In this document: positions 2,114 to 28,800 of the stretch, piece after piece
How the letters are laid out: each line of letters starts with the position of its first letter
Numbering within the stretch: position 1 is the stretch's first letter
Assembly (NCBI GenBank): GCA_021234155.1
Contig: JAJEKV010000003.1
Coordinates: 32,657,166-32,721,165 of the forward strand
Length of the DNA: 64,000 bases
Reading direction: 5' to 3'
Source of the DNA: Isoetes taiwanensis
Taxonomy: Eukaryota > Streptophyta > Lycopodiopsida > Isoetales > Isoetaceae
The notes under the pieces: model-generated
Databases searched by the model: none
Seen by the model: the letters and a program-made list of their open reading frames with translations, nothing else
What the model was told of the DNA's origin: nothing
Position numbers and translations under genes: made by a program

Positions 2114-2394
2114 TTGGCACAAATACCAACACCATCTTAAAATAAAAAAGAAGATGAGGGAATATTATTATGCCAAAGCTTGCAATTCGTCTTGGCGTAA
2201 GGAATGGCAATGTTCCCATTATAGCCATATAGGAACGCTTCCTAATATGTCCATATGGTCATTTCCATGCTAGAATGCATCTAAGCCCAACCCATTGCAT
2301 GACCCCTGTCAGATCTAGCACTCGACTGCTTACCATTGGATAGCATAGTGGATGGTTCGACCCTGACATTATCGCATGAAGTCTGGGTAAGCCT

Positions 2395-2535
2395 TATCGA
2401 GATCCTACTTAAGGACTCAAGTAGCATCCTCCATTGGCAAGTGTTTTCACTTAATCAAATACCTCAATATCTGGGTTCTTCTCATTTGTTTATACGATCT
2501 ATCGAGAAGAGCTTCTGGAACGATCTCTAATTGTT
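2395..2535 (-). pseudogene. chromodomain, C-terminus of chromovirus pol
   Basis: The minus strand encodes a chromodomain-like stretch: LLDRSYKQMRRTQILRYLIK, a stop, KHLPMEDAT, a stop, then DLDKAYPDF after a further stop. In chromodomains of retrotransposon integrases the first two stop positions are tryptophans (the IKWKG and ATWE motifs). Both are TGA here, a single G-to-A change from TGG. In live elements this module tethers the integrase complex to modified histones and biases insertion to heterochromatin. Alignment to the family is by eye, but motif order and spacing fit well. Confidence 0.75.
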
Positions 2536-4166: not shown

Positions 4167-5122
4167 CTATTGGAATCCTGCTTGAACTTTGTTTTTCCAG
4201 TGGGTTGCCCAATCGTTGAGCTTCTCATGCTTTGTGAGGTCGGTGAGGGGTGCTGCTATCTTGGCTAAATCATTAACGAACTTGCAATAATATCCCATCA
4301 AGCTTAAGAAACTCCTGACTTCAGAAACATTTGTAGGAGCTGGCCATTCTTTGACTGCCTCACTCTTAGCCAGATCAGTAGCAATGCCATCAACAGAAAC
4401 AATATGATCCAGTACATCGACCCTGGTGGTTGCAAATTTACATTTGGAGAACTTGGCAAAGAGTTGATGGTGCCGCAACTTCTATAGAGCCAGTCGAAGG
4501 TGGCGTTCATGGTCCTCTAAAGTCTTACTGTACATAAGGATGTCATCGAAGAAAATAATGATAAATTCGTCTAGATACTCACGAAAGACATCATTCATCA
4601 GGCGCATGAACGTGGCTAGAGCATTTGTTAGCCCAAAGGCATAACAGTCAATTCATAATGCCCATAGCGAGTCCAAAAGCTGATTTTTGGATGCCCTCCT
4701 CCTTGATTCTTATCTGGTGATATCCGTATTGGAAATCTATCTTGGAGAAGTACTTAGCTCCTTGCAACTAGTCCTTAAGATCGTTGGCTCGTGGTAATGC
4801 ATACTGGTTCTTAATAGTATGCTTGTTCAATTGCCGGGAATCAATACACATGCGCAATATGCCTTCTTAACAAACAAAATTGGTACTCCAAGGTGGGAAA
4901 CACTCGGCCGAATGAACCCCAGCTCTTAAGAAGTTTCTACAATTGCTTCTTAAGCTCTGCTAGTTCTGATGTGCTCATACGATACGGCGCCTTACTGGTA
5001 GACTTTGTATTGGGTTGAAGTGCAATCTCGCACTCTAGCATCCTGAAGGGTGGAAACTTCCGAATCTTATCACGAAAAAGATCCTGAAACTCGTGAATGA
5101 GGCTGGCAATAGCTAGAGGCAA
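4167..5122 (-). pseudogene. chromovirus reverse transcriptase
   Basis: The N-terminal part (5122-4937) has FQDLFRDKI and APYRMSTSELAELKKQL, typical of the start of Ty3/gypsy RT. The palm follows with DSRQLNK-like sequence and the catalytic [19 protein letters not shown] near 4500-4560, so the two active-site aspartates survive. The connection region SEVRSFLSLMGYYCKFV ends at 4167. Frameshifts occur around 4930, 4650 and 4480. The role in the family is cDNA synthesis from the element RNA. Confidence 0.88.
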
Positions 5123-5145
5123 GCTCTGATAATAGTCTCCTCTTG

Positions 5146-5640
5146 CTAAGCATTAGTTTCTACTGATGTAAGCCTAACAATGTAAGCAACCTGGCTACGT
5201 CGGATAACTTTTTCCAATTGTCTTAATGACATACACTGTCTGATGGGGTTAATTGGGTTACCTACTACGGTGACACGGGTCCCGTTTGCTGCATTAAATG
5301 TAACCTCACATTTTTCACAATCAATATTGGCCTTTGCAGCTACTAGAAACTCCATACCCACGATCAAGTCATATTTGCCAATATTCATGATTTTCGCTCT
5401 CAGAGCAACAGGTGCTCTCGGTAACTAGATATTCAAGTTAACACGATGGCCTGGGTATGGTGCACAGCCCCACTAGCCAACATAACTAGTCGAGGCTTGA
5501 ATTTTAAGAGTGTCAACTGCAAGGTTTCTGCCAACCTAGGTGATGCAAAGTTATGCATACTACCGGTATCCATTAAATAATAAAGGATTGACTATCAATT
5601 TGATCGATAGTGGATATAATAGTAGGTTGACTGTTGACAT
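5146..5640 (-). pseudogene. chromovirus aspartic protease
   Basis: The catalytic motif MDTGSMHNFASPRLAETL is readable on the minus strand near 5573-5520. The conserved YDLIVGMEFLVAAKANIDC follows at about 5375-5315 and corresponds to the YDVILGMDWL region between the flap and RT in Ty3/gypsy elements. The two parts are in different frames. In the family this enzyme processes the Gag-Pol polyprotein. Confidence 0.82.
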
Positions 5641-5769
5641 TACCTGTCTCAATGGCAGCAAAAATATGGGGCTCACCTTGTATATAATCAGTCACCTCTT
5701 CGCCGCCAGGGGTGGCAGGTCATACAAAGGTGTCAGCTCCTTCCATTCTACCTCAGCGAGGGCTGTCTG

Positions 5770-6575
5770 TGCTGCTTGGGTAACATATGGGCAGTCTTGC
5801 ATTCGGTGCCCCAGTCAAAAGCATCAAAAACATGCCTTGTCTTATCTTAGTTGATCATGAGCCTCCCTTGTGATAGATTGGAGGATCGGCTGCATTGTTC
5901 CATTAGTGATGCCGTATTTGTCTGGGATGGTGAAACTTACTTTTTTCTGATTAGGAGGCTATTGGAGAGGTCCCGGACTTGGAGTTTGTATTTGTTTACA
6001 TTTGTGGCCCCTGGGAACATAATGCGACTTGAAGGCCTTGGCAAAGATTTTAAATTTACATCTGCCCCCGTTCAAACCATGGGATCTAACATATCCCTTC
6101 CACCATATCGGGGTGAATTTAGTGAGATTTGTGGTAGCCACTTTACCAATATCTCTTTCAGTCATCCTATAGGACTTACAAACTCGCGCATCTCATCTAA
6201 CCAGGACTCTGCACTCACACCTGAGTGGAAAGTGCCTGAAAACTGGGCGAGTTTACGGTTTTTCTAGATGCTGGTTATGGCAAAGCAAAATCCACCATTT
6301 TCTGATAATTTTTTTTTTCGGGATTTAGCATAGTCTTGTTTCAAGGCTGTGGAATCTGAAGAGTCAGAAGAGTCTGAGGTATCCAAACTATTATCTGGGG
6401 ATGAAGAACTGCGGGCACGTTTAGAACGTGTCGGCGTAATTGGACCATTGCCCAGTGCTGGTGATGGTGATGCTTGCGGGCCTCAACTGCGGGCACTTCT
6501 AGTCCGTCTTCTTGCATCACAGGGTTTGTTGGTCCTTGCAAACCATATTGTTAAAGTTGAGCCATCTGACATTTG
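5770..6575 (-). pseudogene. chromovirus Gag with zinc knuckle
   Basis: A plausible start is MSDGSTLTIW at about 6575. A Ser/Asp-rich low-complexity stretch follows, then a capsid-like segment (QFSGTFHSGVSAESWLDEMR). The zinc knuckle at 5832-5791 reads CF-stop-CF-stop-LGHRMQDC, a CX2CX4HX4C pattern with two in-frame TGA codons. Plus-strand frames over this region are antisense shadows. Capsid assignment is by resemblance only; the knuckle is clear. Confidence 0.72.
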
Positions 6576-6580
6576 ATAAT

Positions 6581-6879
6581 GAGAAGCCCTTGTTCAGGTA
6601 TCAAATGTCCAGGGTCTATTGGAGTACCCCAAGGTGGATTTCGTATACTATCGATAGCATAGATAAAACAAAGGAGCTATAGATGAGAGCTGGGCTTGAA
6701 TCACTTCAAAAAGAAATTGATTACACATACGCAAAGATCATCCATACCACAACAGTATGATAGCCAATATAGTTTATAAAAGTTATAGGATATATTATTC
6801 AAAGTCCTCATGCATGATGTTTACAATCGAATTAGATGCCCCAAGGATTACACAATGAGACACGAAAACATATAAAACT
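6581..6879. other. spacer between gag start and next ORF
   Basis: AT-rich DNA with no recognisable LTR end or primer site. It separates the chromovirus gag start from the unidentified minus-strand ORF to its right. Confidence 0.4.
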
Positions 6880-7663
6880 AAGGACTCGGGCCAGCGTCTT
6901 CTTGCATCGGAGTAGGAGGCTCTGGTGGTCGCCGATCTCGAAGTAGCGTGATGCCTGGGCTAAAGAATATGGCAGCTGCTGATGCTATCTCTATTGTGAA
7001 TGCGGTGGCTAGTGATGCGGCCAAGAGCAACTTCATACTCATAACATGCCGCAATGTCCTGGCCCAGGGTAGCAAGGGCAAGATCGTGGTGTACCAACAC
7101 AAGGGTAACCGTGCCATAATTGACCTTTTTATGATCTGCCAAGGTGGATAAGGCACGAAGTGCCCACTAGGATGCTTCTGCCTCAAGGGCGAGGACCTTA
7201 GCAATAAAGAGGACCTGTCCTTGCCTAAAGGCTGAGAGGAAGAACTGTGTGAGGTGATTCCCCAAGGCCTTCATTACCGAGGTCCCTATATCCTTCTCAA
7301 GATTTGTTGTAACCTGTTCTTGCTTGGCCTCTTGCATCTCTTCTTTGAGGTGTTCCTTGTTATCAAAGAGGTCTTCCCCTTCCTCGTCAGTCTCCATAGG
7401 AATAGGAACATCATTAATGTTGGGGACCTGAGGTCCCATTGCGGCAAACACTGCATTAGAATGTTGGGAAGGGGCATCTCGTAACATAAGATGTTGGAGG
7501 CTCAGAAGCGTATCAACAGATTCAATATCTTCCTGATGAAATCTTAGCTGGACTTGTGGTGGATACACAGTAGGGGAGAAATCGAGGAAGTCGTCTTGGC
7601 AATACTCAACCAATTCATAAAGGAGCTACATCTTTGTTTTGTGGTGGAGATGACAATCAGATG
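6880..7663 (-). pseudogene. unidentified retroelement-like ORF, distal part
   Basis: The minus strand reads through 148 codons (7613-7167): an aromatic/acidic N-terminal part (YCQDDFLDFSP), then an acidic, probably helical stretch (DEEGEDLFDNKEHLKEEMQE). It goes on in shifted frames to about 6900. I recognise no family. Its N-terminal part is the fragment at 11006-11411, separated by the LINE insertion: removing the LINE and one copy of its target duplication makes the two flanks contiguous, although a frame correction is still needed. It could be a non-canonical Gag or a captured gene. Confidence 0.5.
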
Positions 7664-7678
7664 ATATGCCCACATGAT
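7664..7678 (-). repeat. target site duplication of LINE 1 (left copy)
   Basis: ATATGCCCACATGAT directly abuts the LINE poly-T tract. The identical 15-mer is found at the other end of the element. Confidence 0.92.
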
Positions 7679-7823
7679 TTTTTTTTTGAAGGACGAAAGC
7701 CAAAAAGTTTATTAATCAGAGAAAAAGTACAAAATTTACATGTCTCATCTAACTGTGTAAGCACACAAAGATGCCACAGGAGCACGAGCCTGGAGCACCA
7801 TGTACTTACTCCAGAATAGGAGA

Positions 7824-8480
7824 CTAATGATAAGAATCAATTCGAAGGTATTGAATCCAGATACGTTCCACCAGTTCTGAGTCAAGGGTGGAACACTCGT
7901 AGGCTGTCAATATCTTTTTCTCGGGCTTTATGTAATAACACCGCGGTGCGGATGAATAAATGCCCCCGAAGATGTGGAACCCGCGACGCTCCCATATCGA
8001 CCATAGGAGCCAACCGGAGCCAAGATGAAATGCCATGCATTGGGACGCCAAAAGGATGCATCGGCAGTCCAATGTACTGTTAAACAAACCTTGTAGCCAG
8101 GACCACGCTGGTTGCACCTCAGGACAATCAAAGAGACAATGCTCAAGAGTCTCAACGTCCAAAAGACAGAGCGGGCATACTGCAGATATGCGAGGATCAT
8201 AGCGATGTCGAAAGGCATTAACCCGCAGGCACCTGTGGATAACCTGCCACTATAGTACAGAGACTTTAGGGTGGAGCAACCTATCCCAAAGCCATCGCCA
8301 TATACGATACAAAGTGGGCTGTGGAACATGTAGGTGCCACCCATCTGGCAACTGGAGGGGTTATGGTGCTAAAAGAAGGCGATATACTGATCTGACAAAT
8401 TGCTTGCCTAATATTTTCATGACAGTCCCATAGCACCCTTTCAGCAACACCAACTTGCACTATAAGAGACAAATTTTCTG
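7824..8480 (-). pseudogene. LINE 1 C-terminal zinc-binding region
   Basis: The minus strand shows VETLEHCLFDCPEVQPAWSW, matching the zf-RVT pattern (exxeHlxxxCpxxxxxW) of plant non-LTR retrotransposons, and ends WIQYLRIDSYH before a stop. The homologous end in LINE 2 reads FEEYLDVHSYA. In this family the region follows RT and is thought to bind the element RNA. One further shift lies upstream. Confidence 0.8.
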
Positions 8481-8689
8481 CGACCTTCTCCCATAGAGAT
8501 ACATCTCAACGAGAGCAGGAACTTTGCCTGAAATTCAGGCCAAGGCAAGTGGGGCACCGATCCTCATACCATGCTTGAATAGAGACAACACCGCAAGAAC
8601 CCATCGTCTCGTGTGAGGGGATGAACCGAGGTCGCCAATGGAGGTGCCGAGGGGTCCGGAGGCAGATGGTGCCCACCACCACGGAGTCT

Positions 8690-10060
8690 CAATAGGGTGT
8701 GGATAGAGGGGCATGGCCGGAAAAAGATGTCATTTGCCTCCCCACGCTGCCAATAAGCCACGCAAAAAATGGAGAAGCACTTGGAAAAGGGTGCAGAGTC
8801 TCGAAATAAAGCCCAAGGTAGGACTGGTTTTGACCTTCTTGCCTAGAGGGATACAAATGACCAAGAGCTTGTCTAAGAAGGCGTGAACCTGGGAGAGTCA
8901 TCGTCACCATTCGGGGAGTCTCCAAATGAACTTTGAAATAAGCACTTTGCTCTACAGTAAGAAGTCCATCATACCCAGACCACCGCCCATTTTGGAAGGA
9001 TGCACTTGACCAAGCCACCTTAACCACAACACCTTCTTCAGTACCTGCCCAAATAAAGTTTCGAACTATTGCAATGAGCTCACGCACTTTGATCTGTGGA
9101 GCTAGCAGTAAGGATGCCATATAAACATGGACTGACTTGGCCCTTTGTAATGTCGCCCCAAGAGACAACTTAGCGGTGGACCACCGAACAAGTGCTTCTC
9201 CAAACCCCTAATGATCTCCTCCCATGCGGCTCCCATAGTAACATGGATGCCAACTGGAATCCCCAACAACTTGATGGCTTTGTCCATGCGCCAAGTAATT
9301 TTATGGATAATCGTGAACATATGCGGGGCCGGATTATCCAATGTCCACAAAGGCGTACATACGCCACCCCCACAAGAACAGGAAGCGGTGAAAAAGTATC
9401 TAAAAGCATTTTGGCAGCAGCAAGATTCTCATCATTAGCGACTAGAAAGAGGGCGTGTCGTCATGCATATTGATTGCAAACCTCTTGTGTGCCGTCCTCC
9501 ATTGCAAGACCATGGAGAAGTCCCTCTGTCGTTGCAATGGTGAATAACTGTGACAAAGCCTCTGCAACAATTGTGAAAAGCAATGGTGCTAAAGGGCACC
9601 CCTGGCGAATACCGGCCGAAAGTGAAAAGGCATGTGACGGCTCACCATGGAAGAGGACCTCCATCCTGCGGCGGGAGATATGCGACTTCATAATATCGAT
9701 GTGAATTGTTCCCCAAATCCCGGTCTCGATACATCTGGCCGACGGCGCATGAATTCCCAAGCCCGACACCTTTGTCATACGCTTTTGCAAAATCAAGCTT
9801 AAGGTATACAACTGGAAGGTTTTGCCTATGTGCCCAATAAATTCCCTCGTAAGCAGCAGCAACATTATTCAAAATGCACCGTTTTGGAAGAAAACCTGAC
9901 TGGGTTGTTGAGATGGACTCTGCCAAGATGTCCTTTACCCGCTCTGCAAAAGCCTTGGCGAAGATCTTATATACGAACGACAATAAGATAATGGGCCGTC
10001 AATCTGAAATAGTCTGAGGATCCTTGACCTTGGGGATGAGTGAGATGGCACCTGTGTTTA
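8690..10060 (-). pseudogene. LINE 1 reverse transcriptase
   Basis: Signature blocks run in order on the minus strand: YKIFAKAFAERVKDILAES, QSGFLPKRCILNNVAAAYEG, VVYLKLDFAKAYDK, then GIRQGCPLAPLLFTIVAEAL. A Y-A-D-D motif near 9475-9462 is broken by a one-base shift. After that come TKPS-type and LLGIPVGIH segments and the thumb. Blocks are spread over all three frames, so there are several indels. LINE 2 has the same blocks with an intact YADD. Family role: RT that copies RNA at a nicked target. Confidence 0.9.
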
Positions 10061-10776
10061 GAATTCTATTCAAAGCAGTGGACCGCCAAAAGTCACAGAA
10101 AGCATTATACACATCTGGCTCCAGCCATTCCCAATACTCCTGGAAGAACTCAATTGGCAAACCATCCAAACCTGGGCATTTGCTTCTTTTCAGTTAAAAG
10201 ACTGCCGAACCTAAATCTTCAGCTGTTATAGCCGCCTCTATTGACTCGCGTTGCTCACCAGAGATGATGGGGGAAATCCTAGATAAAACAGCATCTTGCA
10301 TTTCTGATTGAAAGGGAAGATGTTTTCAAAAAAAATGTGCGGAAGTGGTTATGCAGAATCTTGCACGAGTTGATCGGCTCTGTTAGCATCGAACCATTCG
10401 GCAAAAGCAATGAGGACATGGTTGATGTCATGCAACGCCTTAGCTGCCACGAAAAAAAGAAGCCCGCATAGCGGTCTCCATCCGCGAAACCACTCGCCGG
10501 ACCTGCCTTCATCTTTGCTTGCTGAATTTGCTCCTCCTCCGGTGCCCGGATGCGTGCCAAAATATCACGATCATGAACACACGGAAGGCGCCCCTGTCGA
10601 GAATGGAGTAGGTCCCGATACAAAGTGTCAAGTAAAAAGCGACGACCTGCTGCTGCGGACTCGACCCACTCTTTGGCGGAACCCTTGGCTGGCGCGCAAT
10701 TGCATCCACTATGCCAGTCATACCTCGACGTCGGTTGAAGGCAGTTGTCCAAGTATTCTTGCAACCTTCTTGAAAG

Positions 10777-10990
10777 TCAGCATCCTTTAAGAACTTCACG
10801 TTCAAGCGAAAACACGTCCTTCCAGGCCGCCGCTGCTACAGTGTCTCGTCTGAAATGAATTGCGGATGGTGGTCTGAAACTCGTTATATCTGAGACAGAA
10901 TCGAAAGAGACCTGGAAGTGCCGCAACTGTATCTGCATTCCAATAAGCTCTATCCAACCGAGAGCTTGTGCGACCCCCACCAACTTGACC
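10777..10990 (-). pseudogene. LINE 1 endonuclease, C-terminal remnant
   Basis: YGQVGGGRTSSRLDRAYWN at the extreme 5' end matches the SRLDR block near the C-terminus of apurinic-type endonucleases in plant LINEs. The rest of the domain is missing because the insertion is 5'-truncated exactly here, next to the target duplication. Confidence 0.72.
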
Positions 10991-11005
10991 ATATGCCCAC
11001 ATGAT
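10991..11005 (-). repeat. target site duplication of LINE 1 (right copy)
   Basis: Second copy of ATATGCCCACATGAT, identical to the left copy at all 15 positions. It marks the 5' truncation point of the LINE. Confidence 0.92.
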
Positions 11006-11411
11006 GTCATCAAGCAGGGGGTATTTCTGGCCATTCCTCATCTTCAACGTAACGGTCCATGAGGATTGCTAGAGCGAAGCGGGCTTCAAAATAGGTTTGC
11101 TTGCTGAAGCTGAGAATGGGGGCATTCTTCGTCCACCATTGGATGCCACGGAAGACATTATCTACGTGTTCATCGTCTCCCAGCACCATAAAATATCTCG
11201 ATCCAAGTACAATTGGGGAGGGTCCCTGCGTTGGATACATTTCAGAACTATTTCTTGAGTGTAAAACTCAAGAAAAAGAGCATAATCCGGGTGAACTTCC
11301 ATGTTGCTAATGAGGTCTACTTCTTGGAGCAAGCGTGAAGAGACTCAAATGGGACTTGGGGATCCCAGTGCTCACCATCCATGTACCATTATTGGCGGGT
11401 GGAAAACTTCA
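11006..11411 (-). pseudogene. unidentified retroelement-like ORF, proximal part
   Basis: Minus-strand start at MKFSTRQ (11411), then HWDPQVPFES, and in a shifted frame MEVHPDYALFLEFYTQEIV and LYLDRDILWCWETM. Another shift leads to QTYFEARFALAILMDRYVED, ending at the LINE target site. The aromatic, acidic composition continues in the fragment beyond the LINE. No domain I recognise. A TAA stop lies just after the start, so the copy is decayed. Possible identities are a divergent Gag or an accessory ORF. Confidence 0.5.
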
Positions 11412-11680
11412 TGGTAGAAAGAAAGAGAGGAGGAGGAGAGAAAACACTCGAAAGAGATAAGGAAAATACGAAACTTTGAGTTAAAGTTATCTTTAAAAAA
11501 GTGCTGATGTCAACGTCAGTAATTATGATAATAATAATTTTTTTTATATAATATTTGTAAAACACATTATATAATTATAGAGGACCTCAAACATGTAGAA
11601 GAAAACTCTACATGATTATATTCATACAAAAAGACAAAATTACAATAATTACATATACAAGTATACAAATTTGTTTGAAA
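11412..11680. other. AT-rich spacer
   Basis: Separates the end of the H3-like frame from the start of the next minus-strand ORF. It contains a TATA-like AT run (11530-11560) but nothing I can call a promoter with confidence. Confidence 0.4.
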
Positions 11681-12089
11681 CTACATGGGATCTTCTCGGA
11701 TCCTTCGAGTCCACGCCAAGTCCTTTGGCATTATGGTAACGCGCTTGGCGTGAATGGCGCAGAGGTTCGCATCCCTAAGAGGGCTACAAGGTAATCCTCT
11801 ACTGCCTTTTGTAGCACAAGTATGGCGTGAGTCTGGAATCTCAAATCAGTCTTATACACTTGGGCAATCTCCCGCACTAAGCCTTGAAGTGGCAACATGC
11901 GTATCAGGAGTTCCGTGGACTTTTAGTACTTCCGAATTTCCCGCAAGCAACTATACTAGCATTGAAGCGATAAGGCTTCTTTTGGCGCTCCGGTGGCGAT
12001 GGTAGGGAAAGAGACTTACCCTTACTGGTCGGATGGTTGGCTTTTCGAACTACTGCTTTGCGGCGTTTCGAACTCTTGGTCTTCCCCAT
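11681..12089 (-). pseudogene. histone H3-like fold, full-length, degenerate
   Basis: On the minus strand a Lys/Arg-rich tail starting MGKTKSSKRRKAV leads into KKPYRF, then (after a one-base shift) LREIRKY, a stop where H3 has Gln (CAA to TAA), and KSTELLIR. It goes on through [16 protein letters not shown], a helix ending EDYLV, and (after a second shift) [18 protein letters not shown] and RRIRE, to a TAG. These are the alpha-N, alpha-1, loop 1, alpha-2 and alpha-3 blocks of histone H3. The length matches H3 (about 136 codons). Loop 1 has no insertion, unlike many plant CENH3 proteins, and the tail lacks the ARTKQTARKS start. It is therefore a divergent H3 variant. The upstream coiled-coil frame reads into its N-terminus without a stop for about 56 codons, suggesting a fusion. 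Confidence 0.85.
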
Positions 12090-12857
12090 CCCTCTCGCTG
12101 CTTGGAATTGCTTCTTATATTGAGCTCCCAAACTTTGAGGGGTCTTCTTGCGCTTCCTCTGTATGATGCGGCCTTGAAGTTGGTCAGTAGCTTGCACTTG
12201 GGCTTCAACCTCACATATGCGTTTGGCTATCTTCTGAGCATGCCCCTCTAACCTCAAACAAACCTCAATTCTTCTGTATATCTCAACTCGGTATCAGTCT
12301 AGCATGGCTGCCATTTCAAGTTCAATATGCTGCTGAAGCTGGGGGGTAAGGTAGCCAGGGAGTTCATCCCAGTTGAATGTTTGGGTCTCTTCATCATAAT
12401 AATATTGAAGCAAGACGAAGAAATATGCATTCTCGATGCACTCTCCATTTCCCAGATTGATATACTCCCGCTTGGGCTTGTGGATCTCCTCCTCTTGCTA
12501 TTTTTCGCGCATCCGCTTCTAGGGCCATGTCCATGACCCTCTTTGCTTCGACTTGTGCAGCTTTGATATCATCATCCATTGCAGACTTTAGGGGATAAAA
12601 CTTGGTGATGGTTAGGACCCGGTCCGACTGCTCCAACAGAGTATACATCTCCCCCAGGGCATTAAGCTTTGGAAGGAAACGCTCGGTCAAGTGGAAGATG
12701 GGAAAGGGGATCCTTCCTCCTATTGTGAAATGCAAAACAAGTTGGTCTAGGAGGAGCTCAACTTTTTCAGGGTCTATGGCGAGGTTATATCCGAGCTGGC
12801 GAAGATCTGTATGATAGTTAGTGTTTCATAAGTTTGACCTTGATCAACACGTGCCAT
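12090..12857 (-). pseudogene. coiled-coil ORF upstream of and joined to the H3 fold
   Basis: Starts MARVDQGQTYETL at 12857 on the minus strand. After a shift it continues with DLRQLGYNLAIDPEKVELLL and FHLTERFLPKLNALGEMYTL, then an Ala/Glu/Lys-rich helix (KAAQVEAKRVMDMALEADA). In another frame come a segment with YYYDEETQTFNWDELPGYL and a Lys-rich helical stretch (HAQKIAKRICEVEAQVQ). That last frame is the same one in which the histone tail begins, with no stop between. No family recognised. The first shift near 12790, another near 12510 and a TGA near 12310 show decay. It may be a retroelement accessory protein that acquired an H3 domain. Confidence 0.55.
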
Positions 12858-13130: not shown

Positions 13131-13781
13131 TTCGATCCTGAGGCCGGCTGATGATGCCAATGATATGTCCAAAGGATGCGCTAGTCTAAATAAAGTGTCT
13201 CTGACGTAAAGAAACAAAAATCACCTCAATCCGAGTCTCCTACAGAAAGTTATGGTCTCTGGAAACAAGGGACCTCATTCGGATGAAAACTCAACATAAC
13301 TTCACCTTAATATCTTAAAAGTTTTTCTTCTTAACCAACTCATTCTCACCAAATTGGTCAATTATCATATAAATACGGGAAATTTCCCTCCCATGGCGAC
13401 TACATCACCACAGAAAGGCCCTCTGTCTGCCTCGGACCGCTTGTGATGGCCAAGTGTTCGGGTGAAGGACACAGAGGTGTCATTCGTCCCACGCCTTCTA
13501 TGGGAATCCTATATAACGGAAGCGTGTATAAAGGTTAGCACCTAGCTCACAATATATAAAATAATATGCCACCTTGAAGGGTGGCCCATCCATCAAAAGC
13601 ACAACACGTCATAATAGTAGGAAACATAACGAATGCATAAAAAATGAAGGGCCTAATCCCAGGCTCAGATTCAATGGTGTTAGCTGACAGGCAGAGCCTC
13701 CAAATATCAACAGACATAATAGTGGCAATGGCGTTGGCTGGCATAGAATAGTTTTTGCTTGATAGACCGGCCATGACAAGA
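13131..13781 (-). repeat. LTR-like repeat R, copy 1
   Basis: The reverse complement of about 13380-13760 is similar over some 400 bp to 34740-35165. Shared blocks are GGATGGRCCACCCTTCRWGG, a TATA-like CGYTATATAGGAT, and GGGAAATTTCCCGTATTTAT, with roughly three-quarters identity by eye. A TATA element followed by a repeated leader fits an LTR, here read leftward. The exact ends are not determined; a different repeat begins at 13782. Confidence 0.6.
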
Positions 13782-14298
13782 TGTGACATACGTCTTTATA
13801 TGTTATACATATTAATGTATGACACATCACCATGAATACTTGCTATGTTAGAATAAATATTAATTTAAAATTCAAGTATGCCAAATTATTAATAATTAGT
13901 CATTAACTATGTTAATTAATTATTATTAATTTAGTTTAAGGGGTGCTACCTGGCCCAAAGGTAGAGATACTAACTTTGGGTCACCCAAATTGGGGTTGAG
14001 GATAACATAATTTCTAAGGAGGGGAGAATATAGTGTTCCACGTATTTATATTCTATATATACAAATACATGACACATCACTATGAATACTTAACGGTGTA
14101 TTAATTATTCATGTTATTAATTAACAAGGTAAGGTTAGCTATGTTAGAATCAAATATTAAAAAGCCAAGTATGCAAAATTATCAATAATTAGTCATTAAC
14201 TATGTTAATTAATTGTTAATAATTTAGTTTAAGGGATGCCGCCTGGCCCAAATCGATAAGGTAGAGCTAACTTTTGGTCACCAAAATTGGGGCTTCCA
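13782..14298 (+). repeat. imperfect tandem duplication with polypurine tract between
   Basis: Copy A (from 13782, TGTGACATACG) and copy B (from 14034, TGTTCCACG) share GACACATCACYATGAATACT, a run around AATTAGTCATTAACTATG and a tail around AATTGGGG. Copy B has insertions. Immediately before copy B is AAGGAGGGGAGAATATAG (14016-14033), which looks like a polypurine tract preceding an LTR that starts TGTT. This may be the 3' end of an LTR element; no coding part is left. Confidence 0.6.
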
Positions 14299-15010: not shown

Positions 15011-15598
15011 TGTTAGTCCTGTGCCCCCTGGTACAGGACTATTCATGCATTCGACGGACCAAGTCAAGGCCAAGAATCCACAACCAGGCGCGGGTTAGTC
15101 GTCAAAGGCCCAGCAGAAGACCAAGCAGCAGACCACGCAGTCAAAGCCTGGGTCTGCTACCAAGAAGCGCCGCTTAGACAAGTGACGGCCCATCACCATC
15201 CGCGTCAGCATCAGCGAGATTTCAGGCTTTTCAAGAGGCACCGCCAGCATTCCTGCAAATCAGGCCTCCTTCCAGGAGTCGGCACCGAGATCAGTCAGAG
15301 TGTCTATATTGGGCCAAAGGCCATTGTACTATATATATGAGTAGAGCTAGCACATGAGTTTTAGATGAGTTTTGAGTCTTGTCTCACTTCAGTTTTCTCT
15401 CTTTTGCGAGAGCTCATGTATTGCCATCATTGATATCAAGGAAGCTTATCATTGTTGTCTCATTGTTTGTTGTTTCCTTTTCCCCTTCATTGTTTTCTTG
15501 CAAATCCCGCGTGACATAGTCCCCGGATTCTCCTGTTAGATCCACGGGTCCTCACAGGGGGCTGTCTTGCAGGAGTTCCCGAACCCAGACCCCAAACA
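15011..15598 (+). repeat. 5' LTR of the gypsy element
   Basis: 588 bp, starting TGTTAGTCCTGTGCC and ending CAGACCCCAAACA. A TATA box (ACTATATATATGAG) lies near 15328-15342. Transcription would start downstream, in the part that is nearly identical in both LTRs. It differs from the 3' LTR mostly in the first half. Confidence 0.95.
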
Positions 15599-15599
15599 C

Positions 15600-15617
15600 T
15601 GTCGCCGCTGCCGGGTC
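15600..15617 (+). promoter_or_regulatory. primer binding site, tRNA-Asp-like
   Basis: TGTCGCCGCTGCCGGGTC starts one base after the 5' LTR. It resembles the tRNA-Asp primer site of plant gypsy elements (TGGCGCCGTTGCCGGGGA), matching about 14 of 18 positions. Confidence 0.7.
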
Positions 15618-15645
15618 TGATTCGACTTTTCTCTAGTCTGTCGCC

Positions 15646-17903
15646 ATGTCTGCCCGAAACTTCACGCCAGAAGAACTTCTTTCCCAAACGGCGTCTCGCT
15701 TGGAGTGTCATCAGCGAAGGGAAGTTGTTCGCAATATGTAGGCATGTTCTAGGGTATGAAAATAAGGTTGAGAAGGTTGAGCCTGATAGGGCTCCTGATA
15801 GTGATGAGGTGACTGAGGCTGTGAGCAATGTTTGCACGCTTGAGCCGGGGAATTTGGACGAGACATGACACGAGGGGTGGGTGGCGCCGACTGAGCCCTT
15901 GACCGAATGTGGCCTCCCTCAATGTCATAAGCAGATCCATACTCGTAGTCAATTGGCCTAGGAGGTGGCTGCTGAATACTGCAATGTAGGGCGTAAGTGT
16001 TTCTTTCTTTTGCAAAACTGACCGTGTAACTTGGTCCCTAGGGTAATTTTGGCATTCCGGACGATGTGGCGAAGTCGAATCGCCATTTCGGAGCCTCCGC
16101 AATGTCCGAACAACAAAACACTTTGGTTTATACACTGTCGCCCGCAGGACGCTTCACGGTTTGATATGTTCTCCCGGACGGATGTTGGATTTTTTTGGAC
16201 CTTCTCGGACCAGGTTCTTTGAACAAAGAATTCAACGGTCGGATACGGGAACCGAGATCCGGGAGTGTGGTCTTTAGCGTACGCCCCCCCGGCGGAGCGC
16301 TGCCAGGAAAGGCTGCCTCGGGAAGCTTTTTGGGGCTCGCCTTTTTGGGGTTCGGACTCTCCCCTCTAATGAGGAGGCCTTGTAAGGTCCTGGCCTTGTT
16401 TGACTTGGGCAAGTGTGCCAGTGAGCATGCACAACCTCAACTGAAATTCCACATCTTTTCCACCACCTTGCGTGGCTCTCCTCATCAATGGCTCATGTCA
16501 AACAAAAGCCACTGGAAACAAGATTGGTCTGAAATAAGAACTGCTTTTCTTTCTCACTATGGGACCACGGATGATGATCAACTTCATCTCAAGCAACTCA
16601 ATGACCTTCAACAAGAGCCCACGGAGTCCTCTCGGGATTTTGCAGATCGACTTCACATTCTGCTCAGCAAACTCAAGGAGTACCCAACACAGAGCCAGAT
16701 CTTGGTCTGGTTTCTCCAAGGACTTCCTCCAGCTATCCGACTCATGACTGAATACCTGCGCCCGAAGACTTTGGAGCAGGCTATTGACCTTGTCAATCAC
16801 TCAGCCCAATATTTCCTCCCGTGGCGTGGCCCTTCAGGAGCTCCCTTTCACCCGTCATGGTTCCACAGACTGCTGTCCAACCTCAACACGCCAATCCGCA
16901 GCGCAGTCAGATCTGGTGCCATATCTGCAAATATCAAGGCCACTTGGCGAATGAGTGCAACTCCACCAATGGCCCGCCTCATTGTAAACGATGCAACATG
17001 TGCAATCACGTCACGGAAGAGTGCACTCGCACTCATCCTACGCCTTTCCGCAACAAACTGGTTTATCAAGTTCAAACCACACCTCAGCAACAATCGCAAT
17101 ATCAGCAGCCACCAATGCAAGCGCAACCCAATCAACTCTATCAGCAACAGGAGCAACAATGGGGACCCAACACACGTCCTCCTTTTGATCCTTCTAAAGC
17201 TCAGTGTTATCACTGTCACGAATGGGGTCATACCACCACGGCATGTCCTCAACTTCCACAAGTTCAGGTACAGCTTCCTGGCACAAATCAGACCACCTCG
17301 GTCCGCCTCACGGCTTACCAACTCTGGATTGCCAATGGCAAACAATGCCCACGTCCTGTTCTTCGGAAGCCACCACGTGCGCCTCAGCAATCACGCTATC
17401 AACCAGCTCCTGCCAATCAACCTCAGATGGATCAACAAGCACAAGAAGAAATTTTTCAGGCTCTTAATCCTCCAGTCCAGCCGTCAAATTGGGTTGGTTT
17501 GGTTTCACGCCAGACCAGGGCGTCACGTCCCTTAACCATCATTCCTAATGGCACGCAACCTGCCTTTGCAGTTGACACCATTCCTCATGAAGAGGAAAAA
17601 AAGGTTCACTTTGCACCTGACTTGGGGAAACTCATGCCGCATGTCATGCCTAAAGTTCGCCAAAGCATTTTGAACCTCATGCAAGCTGCTGAAGGCCGCA
17701 CGTTGGCAAATGTTCATGCCACCACCAGAGCTCAACAACGCCAAGATACACCTTCCACATCTCAACCTCCACGCTCTCAGACATATCCAAATATTGCTGC
17801 AGAGGTTGACCTACTCAAAGAAGTTGCTGCTTCATTACCACGCACTCCCGCACCTGTGGATCCAGCAGATCCTTTTTCTCATGTGCCTCTGTTACTCCAA
17901 TAG
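15646..17903 (+). pseudogene. Gag with three CCHC zinc knuckles
   Basis: A start codon in good context opens MSARNFTPEELLSQTASRLE. The frame soon breaks. The capsid-type domain is readable from about 16390 to 16820 (WSEIRTAFLSHYGTTDDDQ, SRDFADRLHILLSKLKEYP). A shift near 16815 leads into a 360-codon frame with three knuckles: CHICKYQGHLANEC, CKRCNMCNHVTEEC and CYHCHEWGHTTTAC, all CX2CX4HX4C. Between the last two is a Gln-rich linker. Three knuckles in one Gag is more than the usual one or two. Gag packages the element RNA. Plus-strand residues of the long 16195-17535 frame after 16820 are out-of-frame shadow. Confidence 0.87.
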
Positions 17904-17933
17904 GAGCTGGCAAAAATCAAAATTCCTTTAAGT

Positions 17934-18548
17934 TTGGCAACAATTTTGAAACTATGTCCTGCTCTCAAGGACCAGTTACCACTCCCGATTGTTTTAGTTG
18001 GGGCTGTTGCTACCTCTACACCCACGGTACATGCCACGGTGGGCAATCAACAAGTCAATCATGTTCAAATTGACGGAGGTAGCGCGGTCAATCTCATCAC
18101 GGATAAACTCCGCAAACAAATGGGCATCAAACAACTCTATCGTGCCCCATATGACATCAAATTGGCTAATGGCCATATCACGAGACCTCAAGGCGTCACG
18201 CCTCTTCTACACATCAACATTGATGATCTCCGATTCCCCTTGGAATTTGGTGTTTGGAAGGCTGGAGAAGATCCAGGTGATTATGAAATGTTGGTCGGCC
18301 GACCTTTTCTCCGCCAGGCCAAGAGCATCCATTACTGGGCCACGGATCAGTTAGTCATCACAGATGGTCACCTTAATGCCACTATGGACTTGGAAACCGG
18401 TAAGATCATTTCGGTCGACAATGCTGAACCCTCTCTCTCTCTGACACTGATTCTGAGGAACCCCAGAATATCTATCAAGTTTAGGCTCCACCTACGAGTC
18501 TACCTCTGTCATCCTACCCCGAATATGCTGATCCTTGGGGAGAAATGA
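17934..18548 (+). pseudogene. aspartic protease region of Pol
   Basis: A clean 204-codon frame with the catalytic motif QIDGGSAVNLITDKL, then ANGHITRPQG, and the second conserved block YEMLVGRPFLRQAKS. The DGGS form of the D-T/S-G motif occurs in Tat-type elements. The frame ends shortly after in an acidic linker. Gag-to-protease spacing is about 30 bp with a frame change. Role in the family: polyprotein cleavage. Confidence 0.85.
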
Positions 18549-19740
18549 CTCTTGATCAGGACCAGGCTGTGGCGGCTTTGCTTGACCCCTACCTGGCTCC
18601 TTGCAATCGAATTCAACGGGTTGATCACTTTTCAGATGCTGAACCTCCTGCAGCTCCTTTAGATGTACACGCTGTCATGAAGCAACCGCTGCTTGATGAA
18701 ACTCAGCAACCTCTCTTCTTCACCACACAGAGTGCCACACATCCGGTCATGCTCCAACCTCCTGCTCATATTGTCCAGGACACGGAAGTTATCCCCCATA
18801 TTCAGACTCCAGAAGTCGAGATTGTGGACGTGGGCAACAATCACCTGTCGCATTCTTTGTAAATCTTCCGACACCCTATAAATGCGTGGCCGTCACGCTC
18901 TTCAAAAGTTCAAACACATTTTCGCCTGGAGCTACCGAGATCTTCGGGAGATCAACAAAACCTTGGGGGAACTCACCATTCCTACCAAACCTGATGCACG
19001 TCCAGTTTAGCAACGACAGTACCGGCTCAACCCCAATTACCGTGATCGCGTCAAGGCGTAAATTGACAAACTCCTTCTTTGCGCAGTTTGATCTATAAGG
19101 TCAAACATTACGAATGGGTGAGCCCCATAGTCATTGCACTCAAACACAATGGGAAGATCCGTGTTTGCGTGGACTCTAGGAAACTAAATCAGGCCACGGG
19201 CGTGACCATTTTCCACTTCCATTCACAGACACGGAGTTACGGAAGAGGTTCTTTGGACATGAGATGTACTCCTTCATGGATGGTTTTTTACGGCTACAAT
19301 CAGATCTCAATCAAAGAATCGATCAACTCAAGGCGACTTTCACCACCGGGGTGGGGTACTTTTTGCCTACAAGGTGGTTCCTTTTGGATTATCAAACTCT
19401 CCATCAACGTTTCAACGCATCATGCTCTTTTTTTCATGATTTTATGAAGGAAAATCCCTTCTTGCAAATTTTTCAAGATGACTTCTCGCCTCTGAGTTCC
19501 ATGGCTGACCATTTGGATAAATTGGAACTTCGTCTTTGAGAAATGTGATGAGTCCGGCATTAGTCTCAATCGAGAAATGCACCTTTTGTGTCGCCAGGTG
19601 TTACGTTAGGACACGTTGTCGTAAAAGCGGTATCACCACGGATCCCGCCAAAATCGGTTGTGTGCTCAAGGCTCAAGCACCAGCCAATATCAAAGAGACA
19701 CGCTCTTTCACAGGTAAGGTCAATTATTACTCCACCTTCA
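18545..19740 (+). pseudogene. reverse transcriptase, many frameshifts
   Basis: A linker frame (18545-18862) precedes RT. Recognisable blocks are LQKFKHIFAWSYRDL, YEWVSPIVIALKHNGKIRVC with VDSRKLNQAT, MYSFMDGF-YNQI, FTTGVGYF, and the catalytic LQIFQDDFSPLSSMADHLDK at about 19455-19515. Next come EKCTFCVARCYV and SFTGKVNYYSTFIHGLA. Both active-site aspartates are present. At least six shifts are needed to connect the blocks, so this copy cannot make an active enzyme as written. Confidence 0.87.
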
Positions 19741-19971
19741 TTCACGGACTTGCGACCATTGCAGATCCTATTTATAAACTCACGGGTGATGAATCCACCT
19801 GGGCTTGGAATTCCCAGGCGGATGCTGCTTTCCAACAGTTGAAGCTTTTACTTACTCAGGCCCTGGTTCTTGTTCCTCCTCAATGGGACAAGCCCTTTCA
19901 CGTCCATGTCGATGTCTCGGCGTTTGCTATTGGAGCTGTTCTTTCTCAAGAATATGATGCCCACACTGACA
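19741..19971 (+). pseudogene. RNase H, N-terminal part, cut by nested array
   Basis: The frame runs from the RT connection into FHVHVDVSAFAIGAVLSQEY, which carries the first catalytic Asp of Ty3/gypsy RNase H, and stops at HTDKP where the array is inserted. The domain resumes after the array at RYASQKLNSAERNYSATERE, exactly as expected for an uninterrupted ancestor. Confidence 0.88.
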
Positions 19972-19976
19972 AACCC
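19972..19976 (+). repeat. TSD AACCC, left copy
   Basis: Five bases before the first LTR (TGTTAG) of the nested array. The same five follow the last LTR at 28526-28530. Confidence 0.9.
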
Positions 19977-20330
19977 TGTTAGTTTGAGTTCTTGGCGTGC
20001 ACCTTGCAGCAGCAGTCTATGACTGCCGGATGCTACAAGGCTGCCATGCTCATGATCACAAAACAAGAACAAGACAAACAAATATGAACAAAGAATGAGG
20101 GAAACGTAGCCAAGTGAGGCTCTCCAAATTTGAGATAAACCTGAGTACATCTGAAGAGGCTCCGATCTAATATAGTGTAGACCGCAAATCTGAGCCGTAC
20201 ACTAACTAAATCTAATCCCTACACTTATGTTAACCTAATCATGCCAAGTGTCAGTCTGCCACCACTGACACCTAACATGTGCATGCACCTAACATGTGCA
20301 TGCACAATGTTAACCACTAGGTGGTTAACA
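19977..20330 (-). repeat. array LTR 1
   Basis: 354 bp. On the plus strand it starts TGTTAGTTTGAG and ends GTGGTTAACA. The end nearest the internal region is an almost perfect palindrome (GTTAACCAC...GTGGTTAAC). A 17-bp unit ending GTGCATGCAC is doubled inside. Confidence 0.95.
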
Positions 20331-20347
20331 CTGCCTCCCCCTAAAAG
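20331..20347 (-). promoter_or_regulatory. polypurine tract of array unit 1
   Basis: On the minus strand CTTTTAGGGGGAGGCAG directly precedes the LTR start TGTTAACC, as expected for the plus-strand priming site. Equivalent tracts follow LTR 2 (from 23070) and, slightly altered, LTR 3 (from 25792). Confidence 0.8.
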
Positions 20348-20689
20348 TTTTTAGCACGAAAACATGTACAGACTTTTATAAGACAAGTCTGACAATTACA
20401 ACATGATGCCAAAAATTAGGGGTAAAAATGATGGTAATGGTTGGGTTGTGTCGCCGTAAAAGATCTTCACAAAGGCATGGATAACGAAGAGGATCCGAAG
20501 GAATGTCGATGCAGAACATGGATCATAGGAACTTTGGGCCAAAAAAACATGAAGACTATCCCCTTATATTATGGAGAAGTCCATTGTAACAAAAAATAGC
20601 CCAAATTTTCACTTAAAAACAAGTAGAGGGGGCTTGAAAAATGTAAACACCATAAAAGCAGGCCCCGTTATCAGCCACAAAGGAGTATA

Positions 20690-21080
20690 AGGATAGCGTG
20701 GATGTGCCGTGCAAAAATGGTAAACGTGGGCACAAAAAGGATGAGCGTGGCCACAAAAAGTGGAGCGTGGCCATAGTTGCGTAACCCGTGACCCATGATA
20801 GAAAAAGGGGCGTGAAGCACAGCAAGGCGTGGCCATGGGCGGACGTGCACTTTAAGAGCGTCAACGTGGGCCGAGCGTGGGGTTGACCACGGCGTGACCC
20901 GTGATCAGCCAACTTTTTAGCGTGGGCCGTGAGCGTGGAAAACCAACGTTTTAGCGTGGGCCATGAGCGTGGCGTGGGCCTTGAGCCATGGAAAGAAACG
21001 TGAGCGTGGACAAAAAAACTCGCGTGACCCGTTATCAACCTGGAATATTTGGTAAAACAGAGCGTGGGGCCAAAAGAAGC
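20690..21080 (-). repeat. GCGTGG-rich low-complexity block
   Basis: About fifteen occurrences of GCGTGG or ACGTGG, usually followed by GCC or CC, at irregular 10-40-bp spacing. The block recurs in unit 2 (about 23430-23810) and unit 3 (about 26150-26530). Conserved position in all units shows it belongs to the element. Confidence 0.85.
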
Positions 21081-22694
21081 ATAAACTTACAGAGCACGGA
21101 TGGCCGGCTCAATACTGCACGGATGGCCTTCAATCCGGATCTGGAGAGAACTTGCAAACCGGCGGCCTGCTGTTTCTGGTTTGATAAAGAAGCGGTGGTG
21201 AAGAAAGTGTAGATCCAGAATAGGTTATGGCGGCGTGATTTCGGCAGTCTAAACTGAGGAAAAGATGCTTGGGTGCTTGCAAATCGGCTTCAAGGTGGCT
21301 TTGAAGACTAAATATGAAGATTTGGGCCAGAATCTGCTCAGACTGCGGCAAAAATGTGCTCTTTCTGTGATAACCTTCCTTGTATTTGCAGATGCTTCGG
21401 ACAGCGAGAATATCTTGGAAATGGCGTGGTGTTGAGGCTTAGCAAAGGATGGGGTGGGCCAAAAGGGCTGGCCCTCTTGAAGCGATATATACGAGAATGT
21501 AGCCGATAAAATGTTCGCTTTTTAGCATGACTAGATAAAGCGGAATGCTACCGAGATAAAGATATGTCTTGGTTTTTTGCAGAGAATCTTTGTTGCTTCT
21601 ATTTCCAAAGGATATGATAGCGAATGGGCTGAAGATGTGCCTTAAAATCGCATGCTAAAGATAGATTTGCGAGAAAAGGGATCGATATGGTGCGAAATGG
21701 AAGCGTTGAGGAATAGGAACTGGCCGGGATATCGCGGTAGCTGGTTGAGCCATTTGTGTGTGGGAATCGGTGCCATAAACGCCTCAAAAGATTGTAGGAA
21801 AGAAATCTTTGAGCCTGGTCCGATGTGAATATGTGCTTGTTTTGCGGATGATACCAGCCGAGAGAGCACTGGAGTAATCCGGAAAGTGAAGGCTTCGAAT
21901 TTGTATAGAGATGCTTGCTTGAATAGTGCTCTGCGGTTGTGATATACGTGAGGAGATGGATGGGGGCTAGCGGGGATCTTGGCCCTCTTAAAAAAAATTG
22001 AACAAAGGGAGACAAATTTGAGCCCGAATACTTGAAGAAAGCCTTTTGCATCACAAATTTCTTTGTTGTAAAAAAGCGAGCTTTGTCCACCATGAGTAAC
22101 AGAACTCGGCCAAAACTAATTTTGCCACTGGAATGGAGAATATACCGATGAAGAACACATAACTTATCTGTCCAAGAGATGCAGGTTGGGAAAGAACTCT
22201 GAGAAAACAGAGCTCAAACACACCCAAAAATGTTGCAAAAAGTCAAGAAGAGCCGTTGGGCCTCTTCCTTTCTTGCTGATATGCAGAAAAACATGAAGAA
22301 TAAGAGTGCTTTTTGCTGTGCCGAAACAGAGGGCACAATTTTGCCATAATAGAAGAGAATAAAACGAATCAATAGGTTTTTCTGATAAGCTTTTTGCAAA
22401 AAGAGGAGTGCTGTCACCACTCCAGAAATCTTGAAACTGCAAACTGTACTTGCTGCACTTGGAAAACAGAGTCTTGAGAACAGATTTACGAAATTAAATT
22501 TGATCAGCTGGCAGAATCATCAGCTATTTGGAAAAACAAAAGCCTCCAAGCGGATACACAAATCGACTTGGTTGGGCAAACTAAGGATACCTAACAGGGG
22601 AAGAATAGTATACAAGAAGTCGTCAAAACGAGGAAGAATGGGAGCAGCAAGACAACAGCAAACAGCAAGGATGAAGAAAGTGATCACGAGCGAA

Positions 22695-22712
22695 CCCGGC
22701 ATAACGGCGCCA
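22695..22712 (-). promoter_or_regulatory. primer binding site, tRNA-Asp-like (array unit 1)
   Basis: On the minus strand TGGCGCCGTTATGCCGGG follows the LTR end after one base. It matches the tRNA-Asp primer site of plant gypsy elements apart from an AT insertion-like difference. The same site is at 25419-25436, and with one base missing at 28151-28167. Confidence 0.8.
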
Positions 22713-22713
22713 G

Positions 22714-23069
22714 TGTTAGTTTGAGTTCTTGGCGTGCACCTTGCAGCAGCAGTCTATGACTGCCGGATGCTACAAGGCTGCCATGCTCATGATCACAAAA
22801 CAAGAACAAGACAAACAAATATGAACAAAGAATGAGGGAAACGTAGCCAAGTGAGGCTCTCCAAATTTGAGATAAACCTGAGTACATCTGAAGAGGCTCC
22901 GGTCTAATATAGTGTAGACCTTAAAATCGAAAGCCGTACACTAACTAAATCTAATCCCTACACTTATGTTAACCTAATCATGCCAAGTGTCAGTCTGCCA
23001 CCACTGACACCTAACATGTGCATGCACCTAACATGTGCATGCACAATGTTAACCACTAGGTGGTTAACA
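22714..23069 (-). repeat. array LTR 2
   Basis: 356 bp, nearly identical to LTR 1. The clearest difference is around a CTG (AATCTGAGCCG in LTR 1, AAAATCGAAAGCCG here). Confidence 0.95.
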
Positions 23070-25437: not shown

Positions 25438-25791
25438 TGTTAGTTTGAGTTCTTGGCGTGCACCTTGCAGCAGCAGTCTATGACTGCCGGATGCTACAAG
25501 GCTGCCATGCTCATGATCACAAAACAAGAACAAGACAAACAAATATGAACAAAGAATGAGGGAAACGTAGCCAAGTGAGGCTCTCCAAATTTGAGATAAA
25601 CCTGAGTACATCTGAAGAGGCTCCGGTCTAATATAGTGTAGACCGCAAATCTGAGCCGTACACTAACTAAATCTAATCCCTACACTTATGTTAACCTAAT
25701 CATGCCAAGTGTCAGTCTGCCACCACTGACACCTAACATGTGCATGCACCTAACATGTGCATGCACAATGTTAACCACTAGGTGGTTAACA
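25438..25791 (-). repeat. array LTR 3
   Basis: 354 bp with the same ends as the other LTRs. Just beyond its right edge several CTG/CAG words of units 1 and 2 are altered. Confidence 0.95.
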
Positions 25792-28169: not shown

Positions 28170-28525
28170 TGTTAGTTTGAGTTCTTGGCGTGCACCTTGC
28201 AAAGCGGCGAGCCTATGATCACGGATGCTACAAGGCTGCCATGCTCATGATCACAAAACAAGAACAAGACAGACAAATATGAACAAAGAATGAGGGAAAC
28301 GTAGCCAAGTGAGGCTCTCCAAATTTGAGATAAACCTGAGTACATCTGAAGAGGCTCCGGTCTAATATAGTGTAGACCGCAAATCTGAGCCGTACACTAA
28401 CTAAATCTAATCCCTACACTTATGTTAACCTAATCATGCCAAGTGTCAGTCTGCCACCACTGACACCTAACATGTGCATGCACCTAACATGTGCATGCAC
28501 AATGTTAACCACTAGGTGGTTAACA
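28170..28525 (-). repeat. array LTR 4
   Basis: 356 bp. Identical in most positions to the other LTRs, but its CAGCAGCAG and ACTGCC words read AAAGCGGCGAG and ATCAC. Its right end TTAACA abuts the AACCC duplication and the resumed RNase H frame. Confidence 0.95.
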
Positions 28526-28800
28526 AACCCAACAGATACGCCAGCCAAAAACTCAATTCTGCTGAGCGCAACTACTCTGCCACCGAGCGTGAAGCCTTGG
28601 GTCTAATTTTCTGTGTCCAACGCTTCCGTCACTATCTTTTGGGCAGTCAGATCAAATTCTTTGTTGACCACCAGGCACTTCTTTATTTGATCAACAAATC
28701 CACGCCCACGGGCCGCATTGCTCGTTGGGTCCTCCTTCTGCAAGAATTTGCACCTTTTGAAATTGTTTACAAGGCAGGCAAATCTCATGTTGTCCCAGAT
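28526..28800 (+). pseudogene. RNase H, C-terminal part
   Basis: Resumes the gypsy RNase H at RYASQKLNSAERNYSATERE (catalytic Glu), then FFVDHQALLYLINK (Asp), and ends near VPDYLSR (Asp). Key acidic positions are present, so the enzyme was inactivated by the array insertion rather than by point changes here. Confidence 0.9.

Follow-up and report, generated by a model that had tools for sequence, protein, structure and literature searches.

A histone H3 core fused in frame to an accessory protein of a chromovirus family in the quillwort Isoetes taiwanensis

A decayed element and its surroundings

The window analysed here, a 64,000-nucleotide stretch of the Isoetes taiwanensis genome (contig JAJEKV010000003.1), carries on its minus strand the broken remains of an LTR retrotransposon in which a histone H3 core forms the end of the first open reading frame, ORF_A. 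The parts of this element, together with an insertion nested in it and a second LTR nearby, are listed below in window coordinates; L020, L011 and L029 denote related copies retrieved from the genome.

11681-12857, minus strand: ORF_A in decayed form, made up of N-terminal domain, linker, basic tail and the H3 core, placed by its reading frames and by tblastn with intact ORF_A copies, which covers 12795-11690
11681-12021, minus strand: portion of ORF_A that encodes the tail end and the H3 core, interrupted by one nonsense codon and by two deletions of 1 nt each
12394-12825, minus strand: piece of the ORF_A N-terminal domain, a 143-aa stop-to-stop frame found by tblastn, without a Pfam match
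11028-11430, minus strand: 5' part of ORF_B, from tblastn with intact ORF_B
7679-10990, minus strand: LINE nested in ORF_B and foreign to the element, with its poly(A) end at 7679
6975-7649, minus strand: 3' part of ORF_B, from tblastn with intact ORF_B and alignment
4317-6676, minus strand: gag, protease and reverse transcriptase, broken, from tblastn with the gag-PR-RT of L020
2545-4313, minus strand: RNase H and integrase, broken, from tblastn with the RH-INT of L020; an open piece at 3295-3654 matches Integrase_H2C2
2339-2514, minus strand: chromodomain region at the integrase C-terminus, 76% by blastn to positions 1-176 of L029, the translation of which matches PF00385 (2.9e-8)
13368-13748, minus strand: 5' LTR fragment of the element, from blastn against the LTRs of L020, L011 and L029
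14035-14958, plus strand: left part of another LTR of this family, in opposite orientation; 13790-13995 also resembles the LTR start
34651-35189, plus strand: right part of this second LTR; the gypsy element nested at 15011-34643 lies between it and the left part

In this copy, ORF_A runs from an ATG at 12857 to a stop codon at 11683-11681. The H3 part is spread over three frames, with the nonsense codon at the position of Q55 and the two 1-nt deletions, and further breaks and frame changes occur upstream of it; the literal frame from 12857 to 11681 contains many stops and is stop-free only at 12293-11904. With the frames joined by hand, the H3 matches the Pfam Histone family at E=7.7e-31 and H3.3 in the PDB at E=9.5e-40. 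A first-pass annotation of the locus had described a full-length, tailed H3 on the minus strand, running on without a stop from the frames upstream. The core and its place are borne out, but the H3 frame is not open, the tail is not that of H3, and continuity holds only for the stop-free segment, the rest being broken. The Lys/Arg-rich helical frame and the longer ORF that had been placed upstream of the H3 are indeed present there.

The window H3 carries the changes S86T, S87H, V89I, G102A, T107A and I124L, which are typical of a family of related elements, and it is therefore a dead member of that family. Since intact members also align along the window's ORF_A by tblastn, the finding of an H3 at this site goes beyond chance. 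A Met at 12089 was considered as the H3's own start, as it would give a canonical tail length. This candidate was rejected because intact copies have Ile, Val or Phe at that position, and 19 of 20 have no Met ahead of the core; the Met is a change within the element-specific tail.

Downstream of ORF_A, the order gag, protease, reverse transcriptase, RNase H and integrase established by tblastn is the same as in L020. The retroelement ORFs noted earlier in the vicinity do exist, but they prove to be ORF_B and gag-pol of the element itself, together with the LINE nested in ORF_B. This LINE is bounded by a target-site duplication of 15 bp (7664-7678 and 10991-11005), and as a nested insertion with a duplication of its own it rules out the H3 as a LINE component. 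No 3' LTR of the window element was found within the window by blastn with family LTRs, which for this element recovered only the 5' fragment.

Several other repeats share the window. The nested LINE (minus strand) has a related copy at about 59839-62037 (plus strand). The gypsy element at 15011-34643 (plus strand), which lies inside the LTR of the histone family, is nearly 20 kb long with LTRs about 92% identical; it has a Retrotrans_gag match, a late ORF at 31302-32618 of coiled-coil appearance, and a 2.7-kb unit present in about three repeats at 19977-28471. Finally, an element that is copia-like by eye occupies 36151-42002 (minus strand), with LTR pieces 96-99% identical and a polyprotein frame open over 1319 codons.

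A family of retrotransposons with in-frame H3 fusions

The genome (1,658,258,908 bases in 1110 contigs) was searched with the Histone family, giving 8705 first-look candidates, 150 of which were scored. Fifteen scored places cover the profile from position 2; the eight of these that were fetched (L001-L008) all have the host core, and seven are shown as canonical MARTKQTARK... proteins. The remaining 135 begin further inside the profile, many of them within frames that stay open over 400 to 494 aa, and five have an internal stop. Twenty of the 135, picked for their long open frames, were fetched with 10 kb each. In every one, a stop-to-stop frame of 442 to 494 codons is uninterrupted and has a full H3 core at its end. 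A Met within 80 residues ahead of the core is present in just one of these 20 intact copies, and therefore the H3 is generally made only as a fusion.

A second search used the ORF_A of L020 as query. All 91 scored places (from 11841 first-look candidates) match ORF_A, 75 as a single piece and 16 as two, and 83 of the matches run at least as far as residue 440 of the 468. Among the one-piece places, 39 are free of stops and 36 have at least one, so many copies are dead. The first-pass annotation had named a single genomic copy, or the lack of a coiled-coil fusion in other copies, as findings that would speak against its reading; the 91 matching places and the 20 in-frame fusions dispose of both, with the reservation that the linker is clearly coiled-coil-like in one subfamily only. 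The in-frame H3 fusion is a large repeat family in I. taiwanensis. Three subfamilies can be distinguished among the 20 copies, namely I (n=7), II (n=11) and III (n=2). The ORF_A of L020, a member of group II, is 41-43% identical to group I and 46% identical to group III, and the H3 core is nearly constant throughout.

The order of parts in the family is LTR, ORF_A, ORF_B, ORF_C and gag. Within the twenty 10-kb loci, an upstream LTR was found in 18, ORF_B (about 480 aa) in 19, ORF_C (about 170 aa) in 16 and gag in 17, with ORF_B and ORF_C downstream of ORF_A on the same strand. In L020, Pfam identifies gag, protease, reverse transcriptase, RNase H, integrase (Integrase_H2C2 above the cut-off and rve just below it) and a Tf2-1-type SH3 domain. 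A CX2CX4HX4C knuckle is visible in the Gag sequence, its Pfam match lying under the cut-off. A chromodomain follows the integrase in L029, the continuation of L020 (PF00385, E=2.9e-8), and similar DNA is present in the window at 2514-2339.

Two copies, L020/L029 and L011/L030, were traced to both ends. In both, the LTRs are about 1.6-1.7 kb long, start with TGTGACG and finish with CGTCACA, and the primer site TGGTATCAGAGC and a polypurine tract are present. The LTRs of L020/L029 are 90.0% identical and flanked by the 5-bp target-site duplication CAATC; those of L011/L030 are 96.5% identical and flanked by GTGGC, also 5 bp. The element is a Ty3/gypsy LTR retrotransposon of the chromovirus type. 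With its LTRs, reverse transcriptase and integrase, it is not a hAT transposon, a type marked by terminal inverted repeats and a hAT transposase.

Among known chromoviruses, plant elements with Galadriel-like chromodomains, which are described as lacking Y24 and Y48 (PMC3350952), share with the quillwort element the gag-pol order and a C-terminal chromodomain. The YLVKWK box of the latter and its apparent loss of Y24 and Y48 resemble that description by eye. In the quillwort element, these are two of the three cage aromatics, and with both apparently gone no link between the chromodomain and the element's H3 is claimed. The quillwort element differs in having three extra ORFs ahead of gag, one of which ends in H3.

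The N-terminal domain of ORF_A has no known relatives among the databases compared. No Pfam family scores above the cut-off for the N-terminal domain, ORF_B or ORF_C. The PDB holds no match to ORF_B, and the N-terminal domain of L020 has five matches there at E 0.2-0.99 only. A search of 5.8 billion proteins with the window's degenerate ORF_A minus its H3 core, as opposed to an intact copy, gave no match, and viral contigs gave none. The notion that ORF_A and ORF_B are duplicates of one another was dropped after a negative profile comparison.

Variant arrangements occur as well. In L022 (1589-7372, when oriented with ORF_A on the plus strand), an LTR, ORF_A, ORF_B, a polypurine tract and an LTR follow one another with gag-pol missing between, and more element sequence lies beyond the second LTR; this is possibly a non-autonomous form that retains the histone ORF. 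In L020 (3777-10000), ORF_B and ORF_C are undetectable, and ORF_A with its H3 stands directly ahead of gag. Between groups II and III (L028 versus L011, L020 and L026), pS is 0.50-0.58 for gag-PR and 0.74-0.87 for the H3 of ORF_A. This closer relation in gag-PR than in H3 hints at an exchange of ORF_A and gag-pol modules among lineages.

Origin, conservation and tail of the element H3

In three intact copies, the H3 core matches the Pfam Histone family at E 1.9e-43 to 5e-42. Across the 20 copies, 80-84 of 94 core residues equal those of canonical host H3 (L001-L008), an identity of 85-89%, and the length of loop 1 is common to both. Sixty-five of the 94 positions equal host H3 in every copy, including one stretch of 11 residues, in which two of five further places (L033 and L035) show a one-residue difference. 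The element H3s are set apart from host H3 by their fused N-terminus, by the lack of a canonical tail and by E105G/S, T107A, S86T/A and S87H/F in 20/20 copies, to which I124L (19/20) and V89I (18/20) may be added.

CENH3 proteins are marked by a longer loop 1 and a diverged core. The element core has the length of host H3 and a canonical loop 1, and it is therefore not CENH3-like by that measure, as the first-pass annotation had held from the missing loop 1 insertion; the tree described next contains no CENH3 row. That tree was built from 28 element rows (25 places, three of them fetched twice), eight host rows and 11 rows of other organisms, with P0163 dropped because it fell off the cut-out pattern. 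All 28 element rows form one branch apart from the host H3 genes, with support of 100/97 in a bootstrap not fully settled and with P0128 and P0185 aligning only in part. A single element clade implies that the capture probably occurred once, and the simplest reading of the sequences is that a canonical H3 was taken up a single time. As a separate observation, P0177, a 145-aa H3-like protein of the lycophyte Diphasiastrum complanatum, has an odd tail that by eye is unlike the element tail; it is possibly a host H3 variant.

Selection was estimated by the NG86 method for pairs within subfamilies. For the H3 core, dN/dS is 0.012 in I (21 pairs), 0.036 in II (55 pairs) and 0.028 in III (one pair), values to be read with the knowledge that a sample drawn by histone score and open frame is biased towards conserved H3s and has a lowered H3 dN. 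Less open to this bias is a comparison with the N-terminal domain of the same ORFs, where dN/dS is 0.124 in I and 0.127 in II, the latter being a rough ratio since 23 of 55 pairs with saturated dS were left out of the mean dS, and the III pair is saturated. Values for the middle part of ORF_A are 0.13 to 0.19, and those for gag-PR(-RT) are 0.06 to 0.22 (four copies, six pairs). Synonymous saturation is likewise less exposed to the sampling: between groups, synonymous sites of the H3 are saturated in 77/77, 14/14 and 20/22 pairs. Between element and host H3, pN is 0.10 and pS 0.93 (160 pairs), synonymous sites being saturated here too, so recent copying of host sequence is not what has preserved the core. 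These ratios indicate extreme purifying selection on the H3 cores within three subfamilies.

Taken alone, the window copy, with its three frames and nonsense codon, would fit an ordinary H3 pseudogene or retrocopy lying beside transposon debris by chance. Against this stand the family of multi-copy intact fusions in an element context, the H3 clade separate from host genes, the purifying selection and the lack of a canonical start and tail, and the idea is refuted to the point that hardly any credence is left for it. The locus is almost certainly a decayed chromovirus copy in which a captured host H3 forms the C-terminal part of an accessory protein encoded upstream of gag. The tree and the dN/dS comparison, both suggested with the first-pass annotation, agree with its view that an element acquired an H3, as do the LTRs, the target-site duplications and the surrounding gag-pol.

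The part of the fusion ahead of the core is of a different character. Canonical H3 residues 1-38 are replaced in all 20 copies, and no ARTK occurs in the 80 residues ahead of the core in any of them, leaving no canonical tail with K4, K9 and K27. The linker is charged and helical in subfamily I and Gln-rich or short in II and III (one copy of each, by composition); the coiled coil of the first-pass annotation thus suits subfamily I by composition. The replaced tail is basic, with a net charge of +13 to +20 over 80 residues, and has the motif [HY]P.[TI].GK[ST] in 19/20 copies. If this motif is a remnant of the TGGK of H3, then Pro would occupy the place of K9 and the K27 block would be absent, on what is a weak tail alignment. 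An RKS triplet is found in five of 20 copies (L016, L017, L018, L019 and L028), in the contexts PRKSG, ARKSG or KRKST some 40-60 residues ahead of the core, and a K9-like site may thus exist at another place.

Such a tail invites the suggestion of an anti-silencing histone, which would be deposited on element DNA and form nucleosomes that offer no K4, K9 or K27 methylation sites and escape heterochromatin marks. The replaced residues, the missing ARTK and the Pro that would stand for K9 all point that way. However, the weak alignment of the tail, the RKS triplets that resemble the surroundings of K9 and K27, and the want of a known route for deposition in cis on element DNA make this suggestion unlikely. 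The very basic tail, joined to a DNA-binding fold in the first ORF of an element whose gag follows in the same direction, could also belong to a nucleocapsid-like accessory that compacts the element's RNA or cDNA in the particle. Yet Gag already has its own knuckle, and the surfaces facing H4 and a second H3 are kept, though packaging alone would not need them, and a packaging role appears quite unlikely.

Proposed function and relation to known systems

H3 is part of the spool on which DNA winds. Its folds bind H4 and wrap DNA, and they pair with one another via the C-terminal helices; residues 86-90 steer chaperones. The alteration of these chaperone-discriminating residues (86 and 87 in all 20 copies, 89 in 18) would be in keeping with a decoy that ties up host H4, histone chaperones or enzymes that modify H3. 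Decoys, however, rarely need DNA-facing residues, and these are mostly kept, which leaves the decoy a poor candidate.

The best explanation as a whole, a chromovirus with a captured H3 fusion together with a proposed use of that fusion in chromatin tethering, is given a probability of roughly 0.6. The histone fold of the element would still pair with host H4 and bind DNA, and the fusion would be incorporated into a nucleosome half or dock like one. The N-terminal domain and linker would then hold element complexes, be it Gag, genomic RNA or the integration complex, on chromatin, and the replaced tail and the changed positions 86, 87, 89 and 102-107 would set the fusion apart from normal H3 deposition and modification. 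That the fusion itself enters or mimics nucleosomes, and in this way tethers element complexes to chromatin, is put at slightly under an even chance; with its length of over 400 aa and its altered residues 102-107, the fusion may form H3-H4-like dimers only. It is tempting, if more speculative, to suggest that the element's histone variant and host H4 could give rise to element-made nucleosomes, which would write or anchor the chromatin state of the element's own copies or targets.

Capture of an H3 by a mobile element has precedents in fungi. In Pyrenophora tritici-repentis, hAT transposons with a captured H3 (H3L) account for 26 very similar, recently expanded genes (PMC3538342). In Pseudocercospora fijiensis and relatives, hAT-captured H3 copies have also been found, and in P. 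fijiensis all are inactivated by RIP (PMC6710886). As in the quillwort, a mobile element of these Dothideomycetes captured and multiplied an H3 coding sequence. The fungal hAT, a DNA transposon, has inverted repeats and carries its H3-like sequence as an ORF of its own, whereas the quillwort element is an LTR retrotransposon with an in-frame fusion, three deeply diverged subfamilies and a long history of purifying selection.

Domain capture by plant gypsy elements is also on record. For example, 25-kb Ty3/gypsy elements of Phalaenopsis carry an ORF for an AlkB-type RNA demethylase (PMC9289625). These resemble the quillwort element as plant gypsy elements in which an extra ORF with a captured functional domain was kept through subfamily radiation, and differ in the domain and its function (AlkB). 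The extra domains named in the consulted passages are CHROMO, PMD, AIR1, AlkB, G-patch, KOW, ArgoL2 and B3, with no histone among them (PMC9289625).

Words starting with "histone" are absent from the text of an opinion article about accessory domains (PMC6338049) and from the genome papers of Isoetes sinensis and I. taiwanensis. No retroelement-encoded histone is described among the matches listed from the open literature, a scope outside which most subscription papers fall. Domain capture by gypsy elements and H3 capture by fungal DNA transposons were already known; what the sequences add is the unusual case of a captured and selected histone H3 inside a retrotransposon protein, for which a mechanism is proposed. 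The family may have been overlooked since such ORFs get repeat-masked or counted as histone genes.

Transposons read histones through chromodomains and are silenced through histones; a retroelement that supplies a histone would reverse this usual relation. That the H3 core is nearly frozen across deeply diverged subfamilies indicates that the element benefits from the fold itself, and this usefulness makes it directly testable whether, and where, a selfish element builds nucleosomes. Finally, the family would offer a chromatin tool, in the form of a naturally occurring H3 that lacks the canonical tail, bears a large N-terminal fusion and is altered at residues that face chaperones.
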